A stretch of DNA of 64,000 nt from Methylobacillus flagellatus (GTDB lineage Bacteria > Pseudomonadota > Gammaproteobacteria > Burkholderiales > Methylophilaceae). The notes below the pieces were generated by a model, which saw nothing but the letters and a program-made list of their open reading frames with translations, was not told the origin of the DNA and searched no databases. The stretch spans positions 372,001 to 436,000 of the forward strand of contig NZ_SCOU01000001.1 in NCBI RefSeq assembly GCF_005502435.1, read 5' to 3'. How positions within the stretch are numbered: position 1 is the first letter of the stretch; each line of letters starts with the position of its first letter. Positions 24,474 through 34,505 of the stretch are shown here, one piece after another. The translations under genes were made by a program, and so were the position numbers.

Positions 24474-24599
24474 TCAGGACAGGTAGATACTGATCAGCAG
24501 CAAGGCCAGCACCACCAACTGGGCCATCGCGATGTAATACAAGGCCCGATAAAACCATAGCCGGTGCTCGGGCTTTTTCAACCAGTCATCAATCCGCAT
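24474..24599 (-). CDS. 41-residue single-span membrane protein
   Basis: A short open frame runs from ATG 24599 to TGA 24474. The product starts MRIDDWLKKPEHRLWFYRA and then has one hydrophobic helix of about 20 residues (ALYYIAMAQLVVLALLLIS) before a short end. The charged start followed by a single helix is typical of real small membrane proteins, not of a chance frame. It lies 45 bp after the caspase gene on the same strand and could be the last gene of that operon. No function is known. Confidence 0.65.
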   Translation of the reverse strand: MRIDDWLKKPEHRLWFYRALYYIAMAQLVVLALLLISIYLS

Positions 24600-24644
24600 G
24601 ACGCAAATATCCCCAGAAAATACCCCAAGGCTAGCAAACCCGTT

Positions 24645-27600
24645 TTACGGCAAGGTGCCTTGCGGCATGTTCTGCTGCAGTTCGAACAAGCGGATGTCCT
24701 TGCCATAACTCATCATCAGCGGCTCCTGCCGGTGTCGCAGCAGCTTGGCTATCCTCGCGGTCTCGGCACGTGCATAAGCGCCCCACTCGGTCACGCTGAG
24801 CTGGCGGTCCTGATCCTGATCGGCTGATCCACCTTCCATGGCTTTGAGTAAGGTGTGCGTGAACAGGCCGTTGTTGCGATAGCCATCCAGCGCCTCCTGG
24901 GTGGCGCTGGCCGAAGCGAACAGGTGCAAGCCCATATTGCGCGCCAGCACGCTGAACCGTGCATCGTACAGGCCGCGCACCAGTCCCTGCACACCGCCAG
25001 CATGGCAGGTATCCAGGATCACCAGCTGCCGGAACGCCTTGATACGCCGCGTGGCGTCCAGGATACGGTCCGCAGAAAACAGACTGGAAGCATCAGCGCG
25101 TCCGTCCCAGTCATGCAGCACCAGCCCGTACTGGGAGGCGGCATCCAGTGTGCCGTGGCTGGCCAGGAACCAGACGAACACGTCCTGTGGTTTGGCTTGC
25201 TGCTGTATGGTCGCCAGCGCCTGCTCCACAGCACGGCGGTCTGCATGTTCATTGAGCAGCAGCACGCCTGCCAGCCTGCCCGCAAAGCCAGCGCCCAGCT
25301 GTCGCTGGATGTACTGCGAGAAATCCTGCGCATCCTTGGCGGCATACTGCAAGGCGGAGGCATGCTCACTGTGTTTGAAATGATCCACCCCCACCGCAAG
25401 CAGCCACAGCCTGGGCGCGGGCGCCTGGCCTTCTGCCTGCACACTCACCGACTGCGGCCGACTGCTGAGATCGCCAGCCGCGTTACTTGCGATCACCGTG
25501 AACTGGTTATCACCGGGGACCAACTCCACTTGCACACGGTAATGCGCCCGCCGGTACGGGCTGCGTGGCAAAACTGGCGCCTGCGCCTTACTGATCTCGG
25601 TAACGCGCTGCAGCGTGCGTGTGAGGGCGGCATCGTCCACGCTAGACAAGCCTGATGTAGTGCTGCCTGGCTGTTGTGCAATGACATGGGCGGGCTGGGT
25701 CTTGTTGAGCACCTCGACCAGCTTGCCGTTGTGCAGCACGCGCAGCTCACCCAGACCGCCGCCCTGATCATGTGCCGAGATGGCCAAGATGACTGACTGA
25801 GTGGTCGACGGAGTAGTCGATTGTGTGCCAGTCCGTGCTGACGGCGGCTTCGATAGCAGTAGCTGCAACTGCACTGCAGGCGCCGGTCTTTGCAGGGCGT
25901 CCTGCAGGGTGACGGTGATCAGGTCATCGATCGTCTGCCTGTTCAACTGGCGCTGCACCAGATCAGGCCGGTAGAACACATCGTAGAACTGCGAGATACG
26001 GTAGACCTTGCCCTTGATGCGCACATTCAGCCAGCGATCGCCATCGGCAGAGGCAGCGAAATAGCCCTGCGGCAGGATGGAGATCCATTCCGCATCGTCG
26101 AACTGGATCATGCGCACCACTTCGCTGCCATCCTGGGCTTCCAGCAGGCGTATCGCGCCGTCGTCGCTGGCCAGCGCCAGCCGTTTGTCCTGTTGTAGCC
26201 AGCTCAGCAGCCGGGGAGCCGGTTGCATCACCCCCAGGTCACGCAAGCGCGTCAGGCTGTCAACGCTCCAGTGCAGCGTCGCCAGCTGACCAGCCGTGGT
26301 GGCCACGGCAAGCTGCCCGCCGCTGCGACTCAAGGCCATGGCCCGGACAGGCCGGTCGGCGGCATCGAAGGCCTTCATGTAAGCGGGTTCTGCACTGCCT
26401 AAGCGCCATAGCGTCACATCCGGATGACCACTGGTCACGGCGCTATCCCCAGTGGCATGCACCAGCACACTGGCGGCCGTGATGCCCCTGGGCAAGGTCC
26501 AGCGCTGCAGCGATCGTCCGCTGCTGTGATCGAACACCTCCAGCACGCCTACATGTGCATCCTGATAGGGCAAACCCTGCAAGGTACTGGACACCCACAC
26601 GCGATCGCCAGCAGGCGACAACGCTACTGCCAGCGCCTGCCCGGCGAGCGGCAACTGATGATCCAGCTGCCAGCGAGCTTGCATCTGTTTGCTCTGCGCC
26701 TCTACATCCTGCACCTCTGTACCTTGCGCCTGCCTGGACAGCAGCGAGATGGCATGCACAGCGGGCTGCTGTTGGGTGCCCGTGCTGGAAGACGCCACCA
26801 CCATACGCTGGCCGTCCTCGGTCAGCGCCGTGGCGCTGACCACGCGTGCCGGGCCCGCTGATATTTCTTCGCTCAGCACTTGATTGGGGTCGCCCTGCTC
26901 CTGTTCATAACTCAGGTGCACGTACGCTGTCTCGTCCTGTGCATTGAGCGTGGCATGACGGATCAAACGTGGCTTGAGCGGTGCCACCGTGATGGTGTCC
27001 GGGAACAGCGCTGCGATGGAGCTGAACTCGCCTGCCGTGTTCACGCCCAGCGAGGTGGTCGGCCCTAGCTGCCAGTTACTCGATGCCGCCAGACGGCCGG
27101 ATAGCAGGTCCCAGACACGCACATGCTGGGCATGGCGCCGGAAACCACGCTCCGAATACAACACACGGATGCGTTCTGCCTGCGCGTCCAGGAGCGGCTG
27201 ACCAGAGGTGATCTCGGCGAACACTTGCTGGGCGGTCAGGTAGCTGCTGGTCTGAGTACGCACACGCCCCTCGGACACGGCCAGCCGGTTCTGCGCCTCG
27301 CTGGCCACCATCTGTCTGGCCGCCACGCCGCGACCTTCCAGCACATGCTGTTGCGCCCAGCTCGTAGCGCTTTTTTGGTAGACACGCACCGCCTCGTCCC
27401 ACAAAGCCAGTGCCAACTGCTCGCCGCTGCGATCAAAACGGAGCTGCCCTTTAAGGAAAGGCGTACCCTGCGCACCGCGCGTGTTGTAAAAAACCTGAGG
27501 CGGCGCATGATCCGTCAGCTTCCAGATACGCACCGCCTCATGCCGCTGTGTGGCCTTGAGACCCTGATCCAGCAACACCTGCAGATCCATCTGCGCAGCG

Positions 27601-28427
27601 CTCGCCAGGGTCTGGCCATCCGGCGAGAACGCCAGCGCGGCGACATTGCCCTCATGGCCTTCCAGACGGCGGATCAACTGCCCGTCACGGGCATCGATGA
27701 TCCACACTGCATGTTCATTGCCACCAGCCAGACTGCCCGTCGAGAACGCCAGTTGTCGGCCATCCGGGCTGATCTGCAGGCTGGACAGTGGGCCGCTGGC
27801 CTGATGCAGGAGCTGCACTTGCTGGCTGGCGAGGTCCACCCGCAGCACATGCCCGCTACGCGTCCCCACCCAGGCCACACGCTGTTGTGCATCCATCGCC
27901 AGCGTGGTGGCCGCGCCATATTGCGCGGCTGGCAGTGCGATCTTCATCAGCGGCTCACTGCTGACACCAGACCAGCGCCACAAGCCGTCCTGCTCGCCCA
28001 GCGACCAGACCCCTGCCGCGCCCAGCGCTGTTTTCAATGCCACGATCAGCCCGGCATGCCCCTGCCAAGTGCGGATCTTCTGGCCATCGTCATAACGGCT
28101 CAACACGATATCCTGTCCGCTGCTGGCCCCGCCGGCAGAATAGACATAGCCGCCGTCCGCACTGAAATCCACCCCCAGGCACAGGCCGGTGTGAGACTGC
28201 AGCGTGCGGTATTGCAGGCCACTCTGCACATCCCAGGCGATCACCGTACCGCCACCATCACAGCTGACCAGGCGCCTGCCATCCGGCGAAAAGGCGACTG
28301 CCGTGCCGGACATGGCATGACCGGTCTGCACAAACACCTCGTGTGTTTCTTTCGCCTCTGCAGGGGCTGGGCTGGCCGCCATCGACAGCCCGGGAATTAA
28401 CAGAAGCAGCGCAATGTGCAGGTGCAT
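24645..28427 (-). CDS. WD40-repeat protein with C-terminal caspase (peptidase C14) domain
   Basis: This 1260-residue protein has a signal peptide, then many WD40-type beta-propeller units (for example AFSPDGRRLVSCDGGGTVIAWD near the start), probably two propellers up to about residue 780. A linker with Ig-like character follows, and a caspase/metacaspase domain spans about 1004-1200. The catalytic dyad is intact: His1091 in WFLASHGT and Cys1141 in LDTCHAGG. A DQDQDRQLSVTE loop at 1203-1214 fits an EF-hand calcium loop, as seen in some metacaspases. The signal peptide suggests action in the periplasm. It overlaps no neighbour and lies 3 bp after the permease gene in the operon. Target and trigger are unknown. 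Confidence 0.9.
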   Translation of the reverse strand: MHLHIALLLLIPGLSMAASPAPAEAKETHEVFVQTGHAMSGTAVAFSPDGRRLVSCDGGGTVIAWDVQSGLQYRTLQSHTGLCLGVDFSADGGYVYSAGGASSGQDIVLSRYDDGQKIRTWQGHAGLIVALKTALGAAGVWSLGEQDGLWRWSGVSSEPLMKIALPAAQYGAATTLAMDAQQRVAWVGTRSGHVLRVDLASQQVQLLHQASGPLSSLQISPDGRQLAFSTGSLAGGNEHAVWIIDARDGQLIRRLEGHEGNVAALAFSPDGQTLASAAQMDLQVLLDQGLKATQRHEAVRIWKLTDHAPPQVFYNTRGAQGTPFLKGQLRFDRSGEQLALALWDEAVRVYQKSATSWAQQHVLEGRGVAARQMVASEAQNRLAVSEGRVRTQTSSYLTAQQVFAEITSGQPLLDAQAERIRVLYSERGFRRHAQHVRVWDLLSGRLAASSNWQLGPTTSLGVNTAGEFSSIAALFPDTITVAPLKPRLIRHATLNAQDETAYVHLSYEQEQGDPNQVLSEEISAGPARVVSATALTEDGQRMVVASSSTGTQQQPAVHAISLLSRQAQGTEVQDVEAQSKQMQARWQLDHQLPLAGQALAVALSPAGDRVWVSSTLQGLPYQDAHVGVLEVFDHSSGRSLQRWTLPRGITAASVLVHATGDSAVTSGHPDVTLWRLGSAEPAYMKAFDAADRPVRAMALSRSGGQLAVATTAGQLATLHWSVDSLTRLRDLGVMQPAPRLLSWLQQDKRLALASDDGAIRLLEAQDGSEVVRMIQFDDAEWISILPQGYFAASADGDRWLNVRIKGKVYRISQFYDVFYRPDLVQRQLNRQTIDDLITVTLQDALQRPAPAVQLQLLLSKPPSARTGTQSTTPSTTQSVILAISAHDQGGGLGELRVLHNGKLVEVLNKTQPAHVIAQQPGSTTSGLSSVDDAALTRTLQRVTEISKAQAPVLPRSPYRRAHYRVQVELVPGDNQFTVIASNAAGDLSSRPQSVSVQAEGQAPAPRLWLLAVGVDHFKHSEHASALQYAAKDAQDFSQYIQRQLGAGFAGRLAGVLLLNEHADRRAVEQALATIQQQAKPQDVFVWFLASHGTLDAASQYGLVLHDWDGRADASSLFSADRILDATRRIKAFRQLVILDTCHAGGVQGLVRGLYDARFSVLARNMGLHLFASASATQEALDGYRNNGLFTHTLLKAMEGGSADQDQDRQLSVTEWGAYARAETARIAKLLRHRQEPLMMSYGKDIRLFELQQNMPQGTLP

Positions 28428-28430
28428 GAT

Positions 28431-29156
28431 TCAGATCCCGATCGCATACAGCAAAAAGGCAAGCCCTGCCCAGGCGAGCACACTGCCCAGCATGGCCCAG
28501 CGTATCGCGCCCGTCGCCAGGTACTGCACCGACTCGCGCTCGCTGTGCCTGAGGCGCCCCGGCCAGGCATACAGGCAAACCGGCAGCATGCCGCCCATGA
28601 CCAGCACCCAGGCTTTGATGGAGCAAAGCAGATAGGCCCACGGATTCAAGGCCAGCAGCACGGCACCCAGCAGCCCGGAATACGCCGTCTGATCTTGCAA
28701 GGTGGTGACCAGCATGGCAGTGAGCAGCACCGTCACCGAACCCAGCGCCGCCATGGCGAACGCCACCGCCGCATGCGCATACAAGCTGGGGATGGCCGGG
28801 AATGCCGCCGGGCCATAGCCGGCCAGTCTCAAGCCCTCGAAACCACCGTCACGTTGACGCTGATGCAGGTCGCTCGCCAGCAAGGGCGCGGCATGCAGCA
28901 ACACCACCAGCGCCACCATCAGCGGGGCGATATGCAGCACCCAGCTTTGCCATAGCGTGGTGAGCGCCGTCAGGTGAGCGCTACCCAGTACGGATGCCAG
29001 GCTGTGGAACAGCACTACCGCGAAGATGGCCGCGCCCAGCAACACATACGGCAAGGCATGGCGATGGGCCTGGGCGTAGACCTGCCAAAAATAGGCACGC
29101 GGCAAAGGCAGCCTGCAGGCAGCGCGTGCATGCCAGAGCAGTTTCAGTGTGCCCAC
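28431..29156 (-). CDS. MlaE-like ABC transporter permease
   Basis: The protein resembles MlaE, the permease of MCE-type lipid transporters. It has about five hydrophobic segments, and the stretch VLHIAPLMVALVVLLHAAPLLAS followed by DLHQRQRDGGFEGLRLAGYGP aligns in order with the MlaE signature region, though diverged. The GTG at 29156 has a perfect AGGAGG 10 nt upstream and overlaps the preceding stop (29144-29146), so translation is coupled; the upstream in-frame ATG at 29204 is less likely. The MCE and ATPase partners are in the same operon but not adjacent. Confidence 0.75.
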   Translation of the reverse strand: MGTLKLLWHARAACRLPLPRAYFWQVYAQAHRHALPYVLLGAAIFAVVLFHSLASVLGSAHLTALTTLWQSWVLHIAPLMVALVVLLHAAPLLASDLHQRQRDGGFEGLRLAGYGPAAFPAIPSLYAHAAVAFAMAALGSVTVLLTAMLVTTLQDQTAYSGLLGAVLLALNPWAYLLCSIKAWVLVMGGMLPVCLYAWPGRLRHSERESVQYLATGAIRWAMLGSVLAWAGLAFLLYAIGI

Positions 29157-29974
29157 AATTGCAGTCCCTCCTGCTCGGGTCGTTGGCTGGCCACTTGCTC
29201 CCATAACTGGCGGGCATCATGGTGGTAACCGGCACGTTCCAGCTCGGCGGCCTGCATGACACGCACGGCCACATCGGCCTCCCCCGTAAAATAAGCGGCG
29301 TAGGTCGGATCGTCCGCTGCGAGCACCTCGAACTCCGCAGTTTTGACCGCGCCAGGCTTGCCCAACTCCTCCAGCACCCAGGTGTAACGGCCCGCTGGCA
29401 GTGCTGTAGCCAGGGTATAACGGGCATCCGTGGTGCTGACATCAAGCAAGGGGATCGCGTCATGAGCGGCCATCAGGCGCACGCGGCAGCGGCCAGTGCC
29501 CTGCCAGCGCAGCGTCACGCGGTATGGCAGCACCTTTTCGTCCACAGGGCCCAGCATGCGCAGCTGATCGTTGCTGCGCATCACCACCGCCCCCAGTGCC
29601 ATGCGTTCCCGATGTGCCGGTTCGATGGCGGCCAGCGCCTGACCTGCGCCCTGGTTCGCGCATAACGCCCGTGCTGGTGCACCGCTGATGCTTTTAGGGG
29701 CACCCGCTGCCAGCATCAGGCGGGCCGGGCCGTCCACCTGCCAGCGCTGCGAACTGCCCAGATACACCAGTTGCAACTGCGCCCCGGCGGCCAGCGTGAT
29801 ATCCGCCTGTGCTGGCAGATAGTCCAGCATGCGCACCGGCTGGCTGGCACGGCCTTTTTGTTCGCTCACGATCTTGCCTTTGGCATCCACCACCACGGCC
29901 AGATCCTGTGCCCAGGCCAGCACGGGCAGCATCAAGGCCAATAGCAAAACCGTTCTATTCAGTTGATCGCGCAT
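29144..29974 (-). CDS. FecR-like periplasmic protein
   Basis: The 276-residue protein (ATG 29974, AAGGAG upstream) has a clear signal peptide ending near LAWAQ. Residues about 20-90 form a beta-rich region reminiscent of the FecR domain (a polar stretch with QPVRMLDYLPAQADITLAAGAQLQLVYLG, given only to locate it). The rest looks like an Ig-like or sandwich fold (ALPAGRYTWVLEELG) and a short helical end. FecR-type domains accompany CHASE2 proteins in many proteobacteria, which fits its place just after the CHASE2 gene. The exact role is unknown. Confidence 0.6.
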   Translation of the reverse strand: MRDQLNRTVLLLALMLPVLAWAQDLAVVVDAKGKIVSEQKGRASQPVRMLDYLPAQADITLAAGAQLQLVYLGSSQRWQVDGPARLMLAAGAPKSISGAPARALCANQGAGQALAAIEPAHRERMALGAVVMRSNDQLRMLGPVDEKVLPYRVTLRWQGTGRCRVRLMAAHDAIPLLDVSTTDARYTLATALPAGRYTWVLEELGKPGAVKTAEFEVLAADDPTYAAYFTGEADVAVRVMQAAELERAGYHHDARQLWEQVASQRPEQEGLQLWAH

Positions 29975-29984
29975 GATGCTCTCC

Positions 29985-31769
29985 TTAATCCCATACCAAC
30001 TCGTCGTAGCTGGCCGCCGTACCGGTCTGGCGTATGCCCTTGAATGCCACGGCCTCACTGATGGCGCGGCTGACACGTACCGTCATGTCGCGGCCTTCGG
30101 GTGGCGCAGCAGCCAGCTGTTCGGCCTGCTCGATCGCCTGCCCCATCACCACGAAGGGATAAGCGCCACGTATGCTCACCTGCCCACTCAGCAAGGGGCC
30201 GGCCGCCAAACCCATGGAGACCTTGATGTTCAGACCTGCGGTGGTGATCGGGCGGCTCCATACCGCAAACGAGCGCTGTAGCTGCAGCGCCGCTTCTAGC
30301 GCAGCCTGTTCAGGCGCAGGCAATGGCACCGGGATACCGAACCAGGCCGACACCTCCTGACCGTGCAAGCGGTCCAGCATGCCACCGGCGTGCTCCACCG
30401 TGTCTTTCACGGCATCGTAGAACACCGCCAGCGCATCCAGCCGAGGTGCCTGACCAGACAGCGTACCGGCATCCTCCAGATGCAGACGGATCACCAGCAC
30501 GGCCCCGGCCGTCTGACGCGGCACCAGCTCGACACTGGGGGCGCTGGAACGGGAATGCAGGATGTTGTTGAGCATGGCCGGGCTGACATGGCCCGCGAAC
30601 GCCTGGGTCAGGCGCTTGCGGTGATGGGACAGACGACGGCTCTCCAGCGCCTGACGCGACACATAGGCGGTCTTGGCTGCCAGGATCATGCCGGCCGGCA
30701 TCAGCACATGGCCCAGCCACAGCACATACAGGCAAGCGATGGGGATCAGCAGGAACAAGGACCAGTAAACGATGTTCTTCTTGAGCCCATAACCGAACCA
30801 GCAGAGGCAACAGGCCACGATCAGCAGCCATTCCAGTGGCTGCGGCACCTGCTTGAGCAAGCCCTGGTTCAACAACGCGCGTAGTAGCTGGGCATGCACC
30901 ATCACACCGGGGATGCGGCTGTTATCGGGCTCTTGCGCAAACAGCGGGGCGGGCACTTTCAATCGGTCTTCCAGCGGCAGCACCAGCCCCACCAGCACCG
31001 GCTTGCCCTGGAACCAGTCACGCAGGCCATCCACATCACCACCCTCAAACCTTGCCAGCACCTCGTGCATGGGGATGTAGTGCATGGCCGCGCCGCGCCG
31101 GAAGTCAATAAGCCCATGACCACGCTCGGGCACCTGCAGGCGCTGTGCCATACGCGCCGCCAGCCCCTGATTGCTGCCCTGCGCCGAGCATAGCGAAGAC
31201 TGCTGACGCCGCACCACACCGTCCTCGTCCCAGCACAGCAAGGCAGACGCCAGCTGCCAAGGCTGCATCAGCGCGGTATAGCCAGCAAAGATAGGACGCG
31301 GACGCAGTTGCTCGTCCAGCGTCTGCGCGAACACCAGCGGCATGCGGTCACGTGCCTCCAGGATGGGCAGCATCAGAGTGCGATCTATGCCGGGCACCAC
31401 AGATTCATAGGACTTGGCTGGCAGGACCACATCGACCCCCACCACACTGGGCTGCGCCTGCAGCAGCGCTTGCAGCAAACGCCCCAGGTGCGGGTGCCAC
31501 AAGGCGAACGGTTCCGGAAACTGCCGGAACGTGGCCTCGTCGATGCCGATGACCACCACCTCGTTGGCCAGCGGCGGCGTGGACATGCGCCGCAGGGTAC
31601 GCACCCCGGCATCGTACAAGCGCCATTCCGCACTCTGGAAACTGGCGATGGATTGCACGCTCAAGGCAAAGGTACACAAGGCCAGAAAGACCAGGCCATG
31701 CACCCACAAGCCGCCTTTTAGCAGCCACAGCTCGAGTTTTTCGTATAAGGATGTGAATCGGGAAGGCAT
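29985..31769 (-). CDS. CHASE2-domain protein with a catalytically dead adenylate/guanylate cyclase domain
   Basis: The 594-residue protein has a first membrane helix (about 21-42), an extracytoplasmic CHASE2 sensor (about 45-305), two or three more helices (312-368), and a class III cyclase fold (420-575). The cyclase landmarks can be aligned, but every key residue is changed. The first metal Asp is Arg428 (LVIRLH). The second metal Asp of the GD motif is Gln471 (HGQEVSAWFG). The base-binding Asp, transition-state Asn and Arg are Gln544, Glu547 and Gln551 (MGQAIEQAEQL). It cannot be an ordinary cAMP synthase and is more likely a binding or signalling scaffold. Confidence 0.85.
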   Translation of the reverse strand: MPSRFTSLYEKLELWLLKGGLWVHGLVFLALCTFALSVQSIASFQSAEWRLYDAGVRTLRRMSTPPLANEVVVIGIDEATFRQFPEPFALWHPHLGRLLQALLQAQPSVVGVDVVLPAKSYESVVPGIDRTLMLPILEARDRMPLVFAQTLDEQLRPRPIFAGYTALMQPWQLASALLCWDEDGVVRRQQSSLCSAQGSNQGLAARMAQRLQVPERGHGLIDFRRGAAMHYIPMHEVLARFEGGDVDGLRDWFQGKPVLVGLVLPLEDRLKVPAPLFAQEPDNSRIPGVMVHAQLLRALLNQGLLKQVPQPLEWLLIVACCLCWFGYGLKKNIVYWSLFLLIPIACLYVLWLGHVLMPAGMILAAKTAYVSRQALESRRLSHHRKRLTQAFAGHVSPAMLNNILHSRSSAPSVELVPRQTAGAVLVIRLHLEDAGTLSGQAPRLDALAVFYDAVKDTVEHAGGMLDRLHGQEVSAWFGIPVPLPAPEQAALEAALQLQRSFAVWSRPITTAGLNIKVSMGLAAGPLLSGQVSIRGAYPFVVMGQAIEQAEQLAAAPPEGRDMTVRVSRAISEAVAFKGIRQTGTAASYDELVWD

Positions 31770-31801
31770 ATCGGGTACGCGGTTCGCTTGATCCTAGCTG
31801 T

Positions 31802-32611
31802 TCAACGCAACTTGTCTGACGCGGCACGTGCCCGTTCTGCGGCCTGACGGTATTCAGCGGACCTGGCTGCATCGCCTGCGGCGGCATGCGCCTCGGCAAG
31901 CAATTGCAGATCCAGTGCGATACGCGGCGGCAGACCGAGCCGCTGGTCGATCACCAATGCCTGCTGCGCTGCCAGGATGGCAGCCTGCGCCTGCTGCAGC
32001 TTAAGCTCGGCCTGCGCCAGCACACGCAAGGCATTGGCCTGCTCGCGCGGGTTGTCTGCCGCCAGCAGACCGGCCTGACTGGCTTTATCCCGGCCCTCGA
32101 CCCAGGCGCCGCGTGCAAGGGCGATGCGGGCTTGCAGCACGGTCAATGCGGCATGGTCGGGGCAGCGGCTTTGGCATTCTGTCTGCGCCTGCAGCGCGGC
32201 AGTAGCGGCGGCTTCGCTATCCCCTTGCGCCAGCCACAACGATGCTTTGCGCCCCAGCAACTGCGACCTGTCGGCAGCGCTTAATGCCAGATCCGTCGTC
32301 AGGGCCTGCTGCACGCATTGCATGGCCTCCTCGACCCGGCCAGACTCCGACAATGCACGACTCAGCCCCAGCACCGCCTGGGTACGCTGCGGCAAGGCAT
32401 ACAAACCGTCATATAGCACCATGGCCTGCTGGAACTGCTGCACGGCGCGTTCCGGCTGCCCCAGTGCCAGCGCACTGCTGGCGGCATTGAAGCGCTGGTC
32501 TGCCTGCTGGTGCGTGGCACTGACAGGCACGCCCTTGCTGGCACAAGCGGCAGCCAGCCACATCACCATCAGTAGCACAGCTAGCAAGGTTGGCTTGACT
32601 CGGTGACTCAT
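31802..32611 (-). CDS. Putative lipoprotein with TPR-like helical repeats
   Basis: The 269-residue product starts at ATG 32611. Its signal sequence ends in LAAACAS, a possible lipobox with Cys about residue 23, so it may be lipid-anchored. The rest is Ala/Gln-rich and helical, with repeat units such as ALALGQPERAVQQFQQAM that look like tetratricopeptide repeats. It lies 8 bp after the MCE gene. TPR lipoproteins usually hold partner proteins together, and it may link the MCE, CHASE2 and caspase proteins, which is inference. Confidence 0.7.
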   Translation of the reverse strand: MSHRVKPTLLAVLLMVMWLAAACASKGVPVSATHQQADQRFNAASSALALGQPERAVQQFQQAMVLYDGLYALPQRTQAVLGLSRALSESGRVEEAMQCVQQALTTDLALSAADRSQLLGRKASLWLAQGDSEAAATAALQAQTECQSRCPDHAALTVLQARIALARGAWVEGRDKASQAGLLAADNPREQANALRVLAQAELKLQQAQAAILAAQQALVIDQRLGLPPRIALDLQLLAEAHAAAGDAARSAEYRQAAERARAASDKLR

Positions 32612-32625
32612 GGCTGACTCATGGC
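32604..32625. repeat. 11-bp direct repeat over the lipoprotein start
   Basis: GACTCATGGCT (32604-32614) and GACTCATGGCG (32615-32625) are adjacent. The first contains the start codon of the minus-strand lipoprotein gene. Confidence 0.7.
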
Positions 32626-33563
32626 GGACTCGCCTCGAAACTGTCCAGCCGCGGCGGCGCATCGACCTGGACTTGCAGGATAGTGCTGAACGGCCAGCTA
32701 TGCCGCAGCCCGTCCGACATGACAGCCGCGTCTTCCGCCACATTGCGGCCTGCACGTATGGCGGGCGGGATGTTCTGATTGAGTTCGCTCAACAGCAGGT
32801 TCACCTGCACACTGCTCTGCCTGGCCTGCCCCAACACTTCTTGCAGATCACCCAGCAGTTGGCCACGCTGCGCCGCGATGTCTTCGATCAGTGCGTTGGC
32901 ATGGGCACTGCTCTGCCTGACGTTGGCGGTGGTGCTCTCCACGTTGCGCGCCACCTGCTGCGCCTGCTGGCGCAAGCCCGGCATGGCTTGCACAGCTTGC
33001 TGGGTGATGGCGCCGACATCGGTCAGGATGGGGTCTATCTTGCTGAGCGTGCTGTTGATCTGATCCAGCGTTTTTTTGGCGGTGAGCAGCATGTCCTCCA
33101 GCTCTTGGCCAGACTCCAGCACCAAGGTCTTGCCCGCCGACAAGCGGGTCTTTTCCTTGAGGTTGGGATAGAGGTCGATATGCTTGTTGGCGACCGGTGT
33201 ATCGCGCCCCACTTTGGCGACGGTATCGCTGCTCAACAGATTGAGACGCGCGGTCTCGATACGCAGCCTGGCGCGCACCGTCAGGTCGCTCTGCAACTCG
33301 ACGGCGTCCACCTCGCCGACCTGAAAGCCGCGCAGGCGCACCGGCGTGCCCGGGTTCACGCCTGCAGCCGCCTGCAGTTCGATATACACATGGCTACTGG
33401 GTGTGAACACACCTTGCCGGTATGCGCTCAAAGCCATGAGCAGCAGCAGCGCCAGGCAAGCGATGATCCAGCCGGACTGGCTACGCCATGTCGGGCTGGG
33501 TAATGTGGGGCTGGGCTCTAAACCTGAAGTTGGCTGCACCGGGATATGCACTGGCGTGGTCAA
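32619..33563 (-). CDS. MCE-family (MlaD-like) lipid-transport protein
   Basis: The protein has one N-terminal membrane helix (near GWIIACLALLLLMALSAY) and an MCE domain that begins VYIELQAAAGVNPGTPVRLRG, then a long helical tail like MlaD/PqiB-type tethers. MCE proteins form hexameric channels that move phospholipid or other lipids between membranes. The start is set at TTG 33563: GGAGG lies 7 nt upstream and TTGA overlaps the preceding stop, so translation is coupled. The frame further upstream overlaps the ATPase-like gene. It forms a transporter set with the MlaE-like permease of this operon. Confidence 0.85.
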   Translation of the reverse strand: MTTPVHIPVQPTSGLEPSPTLPSPTWRSQSGWIIACLALLLLMALSAYRQGVFTPSSHVYIELQAAAGVNPGTPVRLRGFQVGEVDAVELQSDLTVRARLRIETARLNLLSSDTVAKVGRDTPVANKHIDLYPNLKEKTRLSAGKTLVLESGQELEDMLLTAKKTLDQINSTLSKIDPILTDVGAITQQAVQAMPGLRQQAQQVARNVESTTANVRQSSAHANALIEDIAAQRGQLLGDLQEVLGQARQSSVQVNLLLSELNQNIPPAIRAGRNVAEDAAVMSDGLRHSWPFSTILQVQVDAPPRLDSFEASPP

Positions 33564-34021
33564 GGGATAACCTCCGCCGGGGCATGCGCTTCCAGCCATA
33601 CGAGCTGACGCCACGGGAATTGCTGGGCATAAGCCTGCTGGAATTGCTCCGCCTGCAAGCTGCCGACCGGCCAGTCACTGCGCTGCAACTGCAACACCCT
33701 GGGGTTGCACAGCAGCGCCCGCGAGATCCAGATCTTGGCGCGCTCGGTCGCTGACACCTGTTCCGGGAAGCTGTGTGCCAGTGAGGGCCAAGCTATAGGC
33801 GCGCCACAGCGCATGAACAGCTGGTCCAGCTGCTGCAGCGCGACCGGATTGGGAGGCGTATGCCCTAAATGCGTGGCGATGAAAAGATTGTCCAGCAAGG
33901 ACAGGTCGAACATCAGGCCGGGGCGCGCCAGGATGGTGTGCGCGGTCACAGGCAGCCCAGCGAGCAAGGAGAATGTTGCGGCGTCAGGGCGTGGTGGGTG
34001 CTGCAGGAACGCACCTGGCAA
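33560..34021 (-). CDS. Degenerate ABC-transporter ATPase-like protein (lacks Walker A and B)
   Basis: The 153-residue frame resembles the C-terminal two thirds of an MlaF-type ATPase. PGLMFDLSLLDNLFIATHL matches the Q-loop to helical-domain region, and FPEQVSATERAKIWISRALLCNPRVLQL matches the signature-to-Walker-B region, quoted to locate it. The LSGG motif is replaced by VSATE, and the Walker B DE pair by QR. Walker A is absent from this frame; the TTG start at 34021 follows a stop. Possible remnants of the N-terminal part lie in another frame upstream (LLLYPASRGART), so this may be a frameshifted pseudogene or a non-catalytic subunit. Confidence 0.5.
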   Translation of the reverse strand: MPGAFLQHPPRPDAATFSLLAGLPVTAHTILARPGLMFDLSLLDNLFIATHLGHTPPNPVALQQLDQLFMRCGAPIAWPSLAHSFPEQVSATERAKIWISRALLCNPRVLQLQRSDWPVGSLQAEQFQQAYAQQFPWRQLVWLEAHAPAEVIP

Positions 34022-34505
34022 TCAGCAGGCCCATAAGCAGGCCCATAAGCAGGCCAACAAGTAGAGCGTGGCTGGATGGGCACGCAGGTGCGCGCTCCCC
34101 GGCTGGCTGGATACAGTAACAAGCAACCCTTCATTTCCAGCTCCCCCACTGAAAAGAAAGCATCTTTACGCGATATCAGGGGCGTATGCCGCCTGCTCGC
34201 CATGCTGTTGTGCTACACCAACAATCTTATTGTTATCCGGCAAAGCCGGGCGTCCCGGTTTGCCTGTCCCCATGCTGGCCTGGCGATCACTGCCGCCTTG
34301 AGATGGCAACATCAGGAGGATGACAAACCCGATAGTAACCCTGTTTTCTGCCAGCTTCCAGCGATGCGTGCAGGCGGCATACACCACCGCCGCACGTACT
34401 TGGTTTGTTTGCAGGAACAGCGTCATCCCAGAAACATGCGCGGTACACTAGAATGCCGTTTGGATTTTGCCTCTCAACACCTCAATGCAACGAAAGTGAG
34501 TTTTT
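34022..34505. other. Divergent intergenic stretch upstream of the MCE-caspase operon
   Basis: No clear gene is seen in 484 bp. A minus-strand frame (34203-33946) contains a piece that could be the decayed N-terminus of the ATPase-like gene. A 12-bp tandem repeat lies at 34025-34058. Promoters for the operon and for the DUF808 gene must be here but were not pinned down. Confidence 0.6.
34025..34058. repeat. 12-bp tandem repeat GCAGGCCCATAA, nearly three copies
   Basis: Two exact units (34025-34036, 34037-34048) and a partial third (34049-34058) lie just upstream of the ATPase-like gene start. Confidence 0.85.

Follow-up and report, generated by a model that had tools for sequence, protein, structure and literature searches.

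The operon described here consists of eight minus-strand genes at positions 24474-34021 of a 64,000-nucleotide stretch of Pseudomethylobacillus DNA (the window, C1:372001-436000 of genome G000, 2.38 Mb in 7 contigs). Its genes join the parts of an MCE lipid transporter, with an ATPase that has no P-loop, to a CHASE2 receptor with a degenerate cyclase domain, an MtxA-like protein and a WD40-caspase. Complete or partial versions of this joint module are found in no fewer than three related bacterial families, a recurrence that suggests an envelope-sensing system not yet described. The preferred reading of the operon, a modified lipid-bridge complex of the MCE type together with a sensory module, is regarded as a serious possibility that falls just short of probable. 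The association is recurrent and modular rather than that of one indivisible device, because each half is also found without the other. Diderm bacteria use MCE systems to carry lipids between their two membranes; an MCE branch with an ATPase that is dead in every examined open reading frame (ORF) offers a natural setting in which to test lipid transport without ATP.

Layout and products of the operon

The sequence-only reading described a row of eight closely spaced or overlapping frames. All eight were found at this place, with neighbours overlapping or at most 45 bp apart (range, 61-nt overlap to 45-nt gap), and all eight genes are kept in P. aquaticus H-5 (G001), the only other genome of the same genus in the set, with protein identities of 90-98% for the seven long genes. 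GGAGG-like sequence precedes several of the starts. Motif names, the name Burkholderiales (GTDB) for the order and the gene names dnaB and thrS are presumptive or assigned by eye.

The first frame (33560..34021, open from TTG) holds the C-terminal 153 codons of a degenerate MlaF-type ABC ATPase, a pseudo-nucleotide-binding domain (pseudo-NBD). The remnant of the N-terminal part lies at 34022..34126 and is open in P. aquaticus, where the gene has 184 codons; the degenerate ATPase that had been read from the sequence is present, and the frame assigned to it is only the C-terminal part of the gene. An in-frame TGA and one extra copy of a 12-bp repeat (GGCCTGCTTATG) stand just before TTG 34021 in the window, and this expansion relative to P. 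aquaticus (34021-34056) is either strain damage or an assembly error. The ATPase stop TGA overlaps the start TTG (33563, GGAGG upstream) of the gene for an MCE (MlaD-like) protein (32619..33563), which has a single MCE domain and a long helical part, matches Pfam MlaD (PF02470, 2.8e-13) and has PDB matches to LetB, PqiB, Mce1 and MlaD. After a 7-nt gap follows the repeat lipoprotein (31802..32611), which matches Pfam TPR models and, below cut-off, a BamD model, and has a lipoprotein-like leader and Cys as judged by eye. The starts of these two genes given here (33563 and 32611) are likelier than the first-listed starts, which are over-long.

A gap of 32 nt separates the TPR gene from that of the CHASE2 receptor (29985..31769; PF05226, 6.6e-30), in whose adenylate cyclase domain the class III catalytic residues (both metal Asp, Asn and Arg) are replaced in the alignment. 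The FecR-like gene (29144..29974, export leader by eye) lies 10 nt further on. Its frame overlaps by 61 nt that of a highly diverged MlaE-like permease (28431..29204), for which GTG at 29156, preceded by GGAGG, is the likelier start. The permease gene is followed after 3 nt by the WD40-caspase gene (24645..28427, 1260 aa, family C14, export leader by eye) and this after 45 nt by an ORF of 41 aa (24474..24599) with a single hydrophobic stretch, which is intact in P. aquaticus (42 aa). The permease matched Pfam MlaE (PF02405) at 5.8e-8 with 33 bits (cut-off 22.5) versus 258 bits for the canonical permease, and a profile of 8 permease relatives matched MlaE structures at 2.1e-18. The caspase protein (Peptidase_C14 9.2e-12, WD40 2.4e-17; Pfam) keeps its His-Cys dyad (ASHG, DTCHAGG). 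No Pfam match to MlaB (STAS), MlaC or MlaA was obtained among the eight operon proteins (for the caspase protein, among 25 of 36 families listed), and NCBIfam gave no specific family above its cut-off.

Pfam FecR did not match the FecR-like protein of the window, nor its relatives in loci L143, L144, L145 and L190, and the window protein had no other Pfam match. Its structure model (pLDDT 81.7, 8 sequences) comprises a beta domain, an Ig/FN3-like domain and a helical C-terminal end. The best Foldseek match was MtxA (4Z29, E 2.6e-4), and VIA-align superposed residues 136-276 on the same structure (132 aligned, Z 8.4, rmsd 3.6), covering its two-domain arrangement of Ig and TPR. Among 50 VIA-align rows MtxA aligned longest (132 residues; others 71-88), with a Z of 8.4 that is tied with many FN3 domains, and the Ig part alone fits many FN3 domains equally well. 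Judged from the model, the protein resembles MtxA rather than Pfam FecR, so that of the gene identities proposed earlier this one was revised and the MCE, CHASE2, MlaE and WD40-C14 assignments were confirmed by Pfam.

Terminator-like sites numbered 8 against 5.6 ± 2.5 in shuffles and promoter-like sites 1 against 1.9 ± 1.4; the minus-strand terminator-like matches include one inside the permease frame and one inside the ATPase frame. The eight genes are judged from their sequence and spacing to form one real operon. A foreign origin by composition was rejected, since the GC content at third codon positions of the operon genes (0.72-0.78) resembles that of six neighbours (0.70-0.83). The operon stretch 26001-34000 has a GC content of ~0.64 versus 0.51-0.62 in the rest of the window (2-kb bins). 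A recent insertion at an empty site was likewise discarded: no such site could be defined because the flanking genes are far apart in those relatives that carry both on one contig.

The degenerate ATPase and selection on the operon

In the window ATPase the LSGGQ motif is absent and the acidic residues of Walker B are lost, and its match to Pfam ABC_tran reached an E of only 0.19; Walker A is absent both here and in P. aquaticus. Proteins of the family are mostly 180-215 aa. A family profile was matched to ABC proteins in all 60 PDB matches listed of 272 (profile positions 43-147 of 180). For the model of the P. aquaticus ATPase (pLDDT 69.6; first 41 residues mostly <50), each of the 50 Foldseek rows listed is an ABC ATPase (TM 0.38-0.49), and VIA-align superposed the model on ABC ATPases including MlaF (Z 8.7-9.7, 141-167 residues). 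The NBD fold is kept, according to the model.

Walker A (G....GK[ST] or G.GK[ST]) was found in none of the 70 pseudo-ATPase ORFs that stand beside an MCE gene of this type (49 distinct); a bare GK[ST] occurs in five of the 70, elsewhere in the sequence. A further 11 family members do not adjoin such an MCE gene, four of them cut by locus edges and one (L188) being a member of the system on a contig that ends. Six of these carry the motif, namely the canonical MlaF of both Pseudomethylobacillus genomes (GGSGSGKT) and four others. Nine weaker relatives (79-116 bits) were found among 369 genomes of the class, in which permease, ATPase, MCE and TPR genes, or most of them, are kept. The ATPase was seen in eight of these gammaproteobacterial loci (L202-L210; that of L210 possibly out of frame at its start) and has a P-loop in two of the eight, so the loci stand at different stages of P-loop loss. 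Since two P-loops persist among these relatives, the P-loop was probably lost, seemingly on more than one occasion, in a line descended from a true transporter. All 10 genomes tested have a canonical Mla permease gene elsewhere, in the window genome together with an intact ATPase and MCE gene; the operon copy was therefore free to specialise.

Two observations on relatives concern the same genes. In Sideroxydans LH_M3 the dead-ATPase operon is preceded, at a distance of a few kb, by an FGE-sulfatase-type gene and by a second MCE operon, whose ATPase has its P-loop intact (L193:1302-5931). An apparent MCE-ATPase fusion in L190 (471-aa ORF) was dismissed, as the ATPase profile gave no score for its N-terminus and the ATPase has a frame of its own there.

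Ratios of nonsynonymous to synonymous substitution (dN/dS) against P. aquaticus were 0.37 for the ATPase, 0.13 for MCE, 0.21 for TPR, 0.082 for CHASE2, 0.24 for FecR-like, 0.056 for the permease, 0.18 for the caspase and 0.06 for the small ORF (40 codons, dS 1.5), versus 0.03-0.18 for five neighbour genes in the same comparison. Both the dead ATPase and the dead cyclase appear from these ratios to be under purifying selection. A decaying relic, drifting after loss of ATPase and cyclase, would fit the in-frame TGA and the expanded repeat of the ATPase gene, the strong divergence of the permease and the very long branches of the window's rows in both trees described below. It is nevertheless considered very unlikely: dN/dS is 0.06-0.24 for the genes other than the ATPase, with permease and CHASE2 lowest among the long ones, and all frames are kept in a second species.

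Linkage of the MCE core with CHASE2 and caspase genes

The CHASE2 protein of genome G083 was used as a query against 158 Gallionellaceae genomes, and all 28 loci with matches above 500 bits were inspected. MCE and TPR genes precede CHASE2 on the same strand, with TPR adjacent, in 25 of the 28; in one of the others (G167) MCE is found 7.8 kb upstream, again on the CHASE2 strand, and in two the contig stops short of MCE. Scanning 84,980 named genomes for the pattern returned 32 loci. CHASE2 stands beside the core in a different order in Rhodocyclaceae-type loci: CHASE2-permease-ATPase-MCE-TPR-FecR-like in L190 (Rhodocyclaceae) and FecR-like-CHASE2-permease-ATPase-MCE-TPR in L195 (Sulfuritalea), FecR-like genes thus accompanying the pair. 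The order in L198 (Betaproteobacteria) is ATPase-MCE-TPR-CHASE2-permease, and in L188 and L191 the contig ends before MCE. The union of core and CHASE2 was found in Gallionellaceae, Rhodocyclaceae-type and Pseudomethylobacillus genomes.

Linked rows cluster, with 4 changes on the MCE tree and 3 on the CHASE2 tree versus 15.4 and 8.9 when shuffled, and at least two changes on the CHASE2 tree are forced by starred branches. These trees are quick ones with long branches, in which L188 and L191 were counted as linked by their permease alone and L172 as unlinked though its contig ends. The genus g48, which holds most CHASE2-linked loci, keeps the core in one chromosomal place, upstream of a gene that we take by eye to be thrS, in 20 of 24 loci; the other four are cut by contig ends. 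Asp, Asp, Asn and Arg of the cyclase are all kept in L091-L093, L095 and L097; five aligned g48 rows are without Asn and Arg, some also without an Asp, and L094 is partly degenerate. In two genomes of Gallionellaceae type (L095, L096) a 451-aa ORF that looks by eye like a protein kinase stands upstream of CHASE2 and the FecR-like gene.

Caspase genes join core and CHASE2 in Pseudomethylobacillus and in four genomes of one Gallionellaceae genus (g69), mostly with an MtxA-like gene. The genome scan found one C14 gene in the window genome, that of the operon, and two in P. aquaticus, one of them in the operon; such counts are lower bounds, because the scan missed the WD40-caspase of G167, and a sole C14 gene means that only one was found. 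In Ferrigenium straubiae (G188) all three C14 and two CHAT genes found lie at C4:148.0-158.4 kb (10.4 kb, same strand); the order on that strand is cyclase, FecR-like, permease, C14-FGE, DUF4384, CHAT, CHAT, C14, C14, ATPase, MCE, TPR, CHASE2. Seen as a locus (L144:2717-15602), this one strand places cyclase, FecR-like and permease genes, caspases, two CHAT proteases and DUF4384 proteins before the MCE genes. Of the eight C14 and two CHAT genes of G170, five and one, respectively, lie in the region, with FecR-like and permease genes upstream and a C14 gene directly after CHASE2. G183 has two of its three C14 genes on the contig that carries MCE and CHASE2, and one of these is on the other strand. 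Gallionella STB_67 (G167, L174) carries on one strand a C14 ORF, a WD40-C14 gene, two ORFs, an MtxA-like (FecR-like) gene, ATPase, MCE and TPR, with CHASE2 and permease 7.8 kb further on. Its WD40-C14 protein (992 aa, C14 1.7e-11) keeps AGHG and DTCYSG and aligns with the window protein over the caspase end and linker (24% over 483 columns, 3e-25). A protein with DUF4384 and a peptidoglycan-binding domain is encoded directly after the TPR gene in this locus (L174:2989-4659). A caspase that seemed to adjoin g48 locus L089 was rejected, the ORF being an FGE-sulfatase-type protein with no C14 domain (L193 copy).

The clustering of caspase and CHAT genes in G170 and G188 would also suit a periplasmic device of cell death or defence, in which the caspase, switched on by damage to the membrane (from phage or an antibiotic, for instance), kills the cell. 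The window caspase matched a PADLOC caspase model (2.4e-10), and weak matches to Pycsar cyclase models (best 2.8e-5) were obtained for the cyclase region. We hold such a device to be improbable, given that the cyclase is dead in the window, no known-type defence effector was seen, the caspase is apparently exported and the g48 core occupies a constant chromosomal place.

When 399 genomes of the order, a sample not chosen by CHASE2, were searched with an MCE profile, 34 matches were obtained, 31 of them at ≥166 bits and the next at 77; 24 of the 31 strong loci were examined, whereas the wider set of 50 distinct MCE loci is enriched for CHASE2. CHASE2 was present at four of the 24 (G000, G083, G224, G254). 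The 20 CHASE2-free loci come from families f5, f15, f22, f25, f33 and f51, and 17 of them have the order permease-ATPase-MCE-TPR; the permease is last in L156 and was undetected in L161, and the ATPase was undetected in L165. This core without CHASE2 is taken, from its distribution, as the presumptive parental module.

Several results weigh against a single sensing device. CHASE2 was absent within 14-15 kb in the 20 loci just described, and CHASE2 loci without MCE in the fetched stretch also occur (L034-L038, L095-L097, L186). Within the family of the window genome, a CHASE2 match of ≥150 bits was obtained in one of the 58 other members (G027), at a CHASE2-FecR-like-caspase locus without MCE. 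C14 or CHAT genes likewise lie near CHASE2 and FecR-like genes without MCE in G027 itself (~1 kb), G081 (at two loci, one with a FecR-like gene that was called by eye and has no Pfam match), G062 (opposite strand) and L172. Most CHASE2-linked loci are without a caspase. A C14 match was absent from five of seven g48 genomes tested and occurred near the locus in none of the seven; the core therefore needs no caspase. Two of eight further genomes also had no C14 match, those of L190 (MCE-CHASE2-FecR-like) and L198 (MCE-CHASE2). The L190 genome has a FecR-like gene, and a strict link between this gene and the caspase was accordingly not upheld. No FecR-like gene was found beside the core in g48, and the FecR-like and permease genes of G183 are on a separate small contig. 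Export of the caspase and FecR-like protein is apparent by eye, NBDs without a P-loop might still bind nucleotide, and the ATPase gene of the window is damaged and the least constrained of the operon. The proposal that MCE and CHASE2/caspase genes belong together therefore stood in part: joined loci recur well beyond the window genome, and homologous loci that separate the halves are common.

A rival reading is an ordinary lipid transporter of the Mpc/Mla type, in which a different ATPase partners the degenerate NBD or takes its place, and in which CHASE2, FecR-like protein and caspase are no more than co-regulated neighbours. The core without CHASE2 in most examined strong loci and the P-loops kept by weaker gammaproteobacterial relatives speak for it. 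The direct same-strand succession of TPR and CHASE2 in Gallionellaceae, the pairing in a different order in Rhodocyclaceae-type loci and the recurrence of caspase linkage in two families speak against it, and it is thought unlikely, if still a real contender.

A possible envelope-sensing pathway and known systems

For the preferred reading, a lipid bridge combined with a sensory module, the following course is envisaged. Permease and MCE hexamer would form an inner-membrane base with a periplasmic needle, which would meet the outer membrane through the TPR lipoprotein, whose outer-membrane sorting is presumed, as proposed for Mpc and PqiABC. The complex would not pump, because its NBD lacks the ATP-binding loop, and may serve as a passive conduit, like the ATPase-free Pqi and Let systems, or as a gauge of the state of the lipids or of the envelope. 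This state would be read by CHASE2 and the MtxA-like protein. In lineages with a live cyclase the output could be a cytoplasmic cyclic nucleotide. In Pseudomethylobacillus, with its dead cyclase, the signal would stay outside the cytoplasm and gate the WD40-caspase, which might then cleave an envelope protein. The apparently exported caspase is the only operon enzyme with intact catalytic residues. This fuller account, in which an ABC lipid transporter turned sensor through ATPase loss and the CHASE2 pseudo-cyclase and MtxA-like protein relay the lipid state of the envelope to a periplasmic caspase, is offered tentatively and remains doubtful as a whole. Through the recurrent union with CHASE2 and, in two families, with caspases, both the orphan MtxA-CHASE2 pair and the exported caspases of bacteria would gain a concrete context that can be tested.

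The claim that no described system mixes both halves was supported by the open literature (5.39 million papers), in which no paper with CHASE2 and 'MCE protein' and none describing the combination was found, Mpc being the sole relevant match among those listed (subscription papers and preprints were outside the scope). CHASE2 is named with FecR in 3 open papers and with caspase in 7 (among them PMC5192318, PMC3501461 and PMC8195603). Among bacterial caspase homologs WD40 is the commonest extra domain (10.9%) and a cyanobacterial CHASE2-caspase fusion has been reported; the portion of that survey available mentions neither an MCE nor a FecR-like partner (PMC3501461). The BiofilmReg operon of Burkholderia encodes a CHASE2 histidine kinase, a response regulator, a LysM protein and a FecR-type periplasmic protein (PMC5192318). 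It shares with the present operon a CHASE2 receptor and a FecR-type periplasmic protein and, in the extract available, is described without MCE, cyclase or caspase (PMC5192318).

In magnetotactic bacteria mtxA is followed by a CHASE2-adenylate cyclase gene, and mtxA deletion gave no phenotype in standard culture (PMC4439547). MtxA has a signal peptide, Ig-like and TPR domains and the CHASE2-cyclase neighbour (PMC4439547), and the model of the operon protein matches both domains. MCE genes, which the operon has, are not mentioned in the accessible sections of that account (PMC4439547).

The operon proteins are homologous to MlaE, MlaD and MlaF of MlaFEDB, from which the operon differs in the absent P-loop, in having no MlaB, MlaC or MlaA genes seen within it and in the presence of a canonical set elsewhere in the genome. 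PqiABC and LetAB are MCE systems with a membrane protein that has no ATPase domain, according to the consulted portion of PMC12436622, whereas the operon permease is MlaE-like. The closest likeness in gene content is to Mpc (Mla-Pqi chimeric) of Hyphomicrobiales, which has a four-gene core of MlaE-type permease, MlaF-type subunit, long-needle MCE protein (MpcD, 331 aa) and lipoprotein (PMC12436622); the operon has the same set. In the part of its description considered here, the ATPase of Mpc is well conserved, its permease carries a STAS domain at the N-terminus and its lipoprotein is of the PqiC type (PMC12436622), whereas the operon has a dead NBD, no STAS match and a TPR-type lipoprotein, and adds CHASE2, the MtxA-like protein and the caspase. 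Mpc co-purifies and is proposed, in the same portion of text, to bridge both membranes (PMC12436622), and by this comparison the operon core should be an envelope-spanning lipid conduit.

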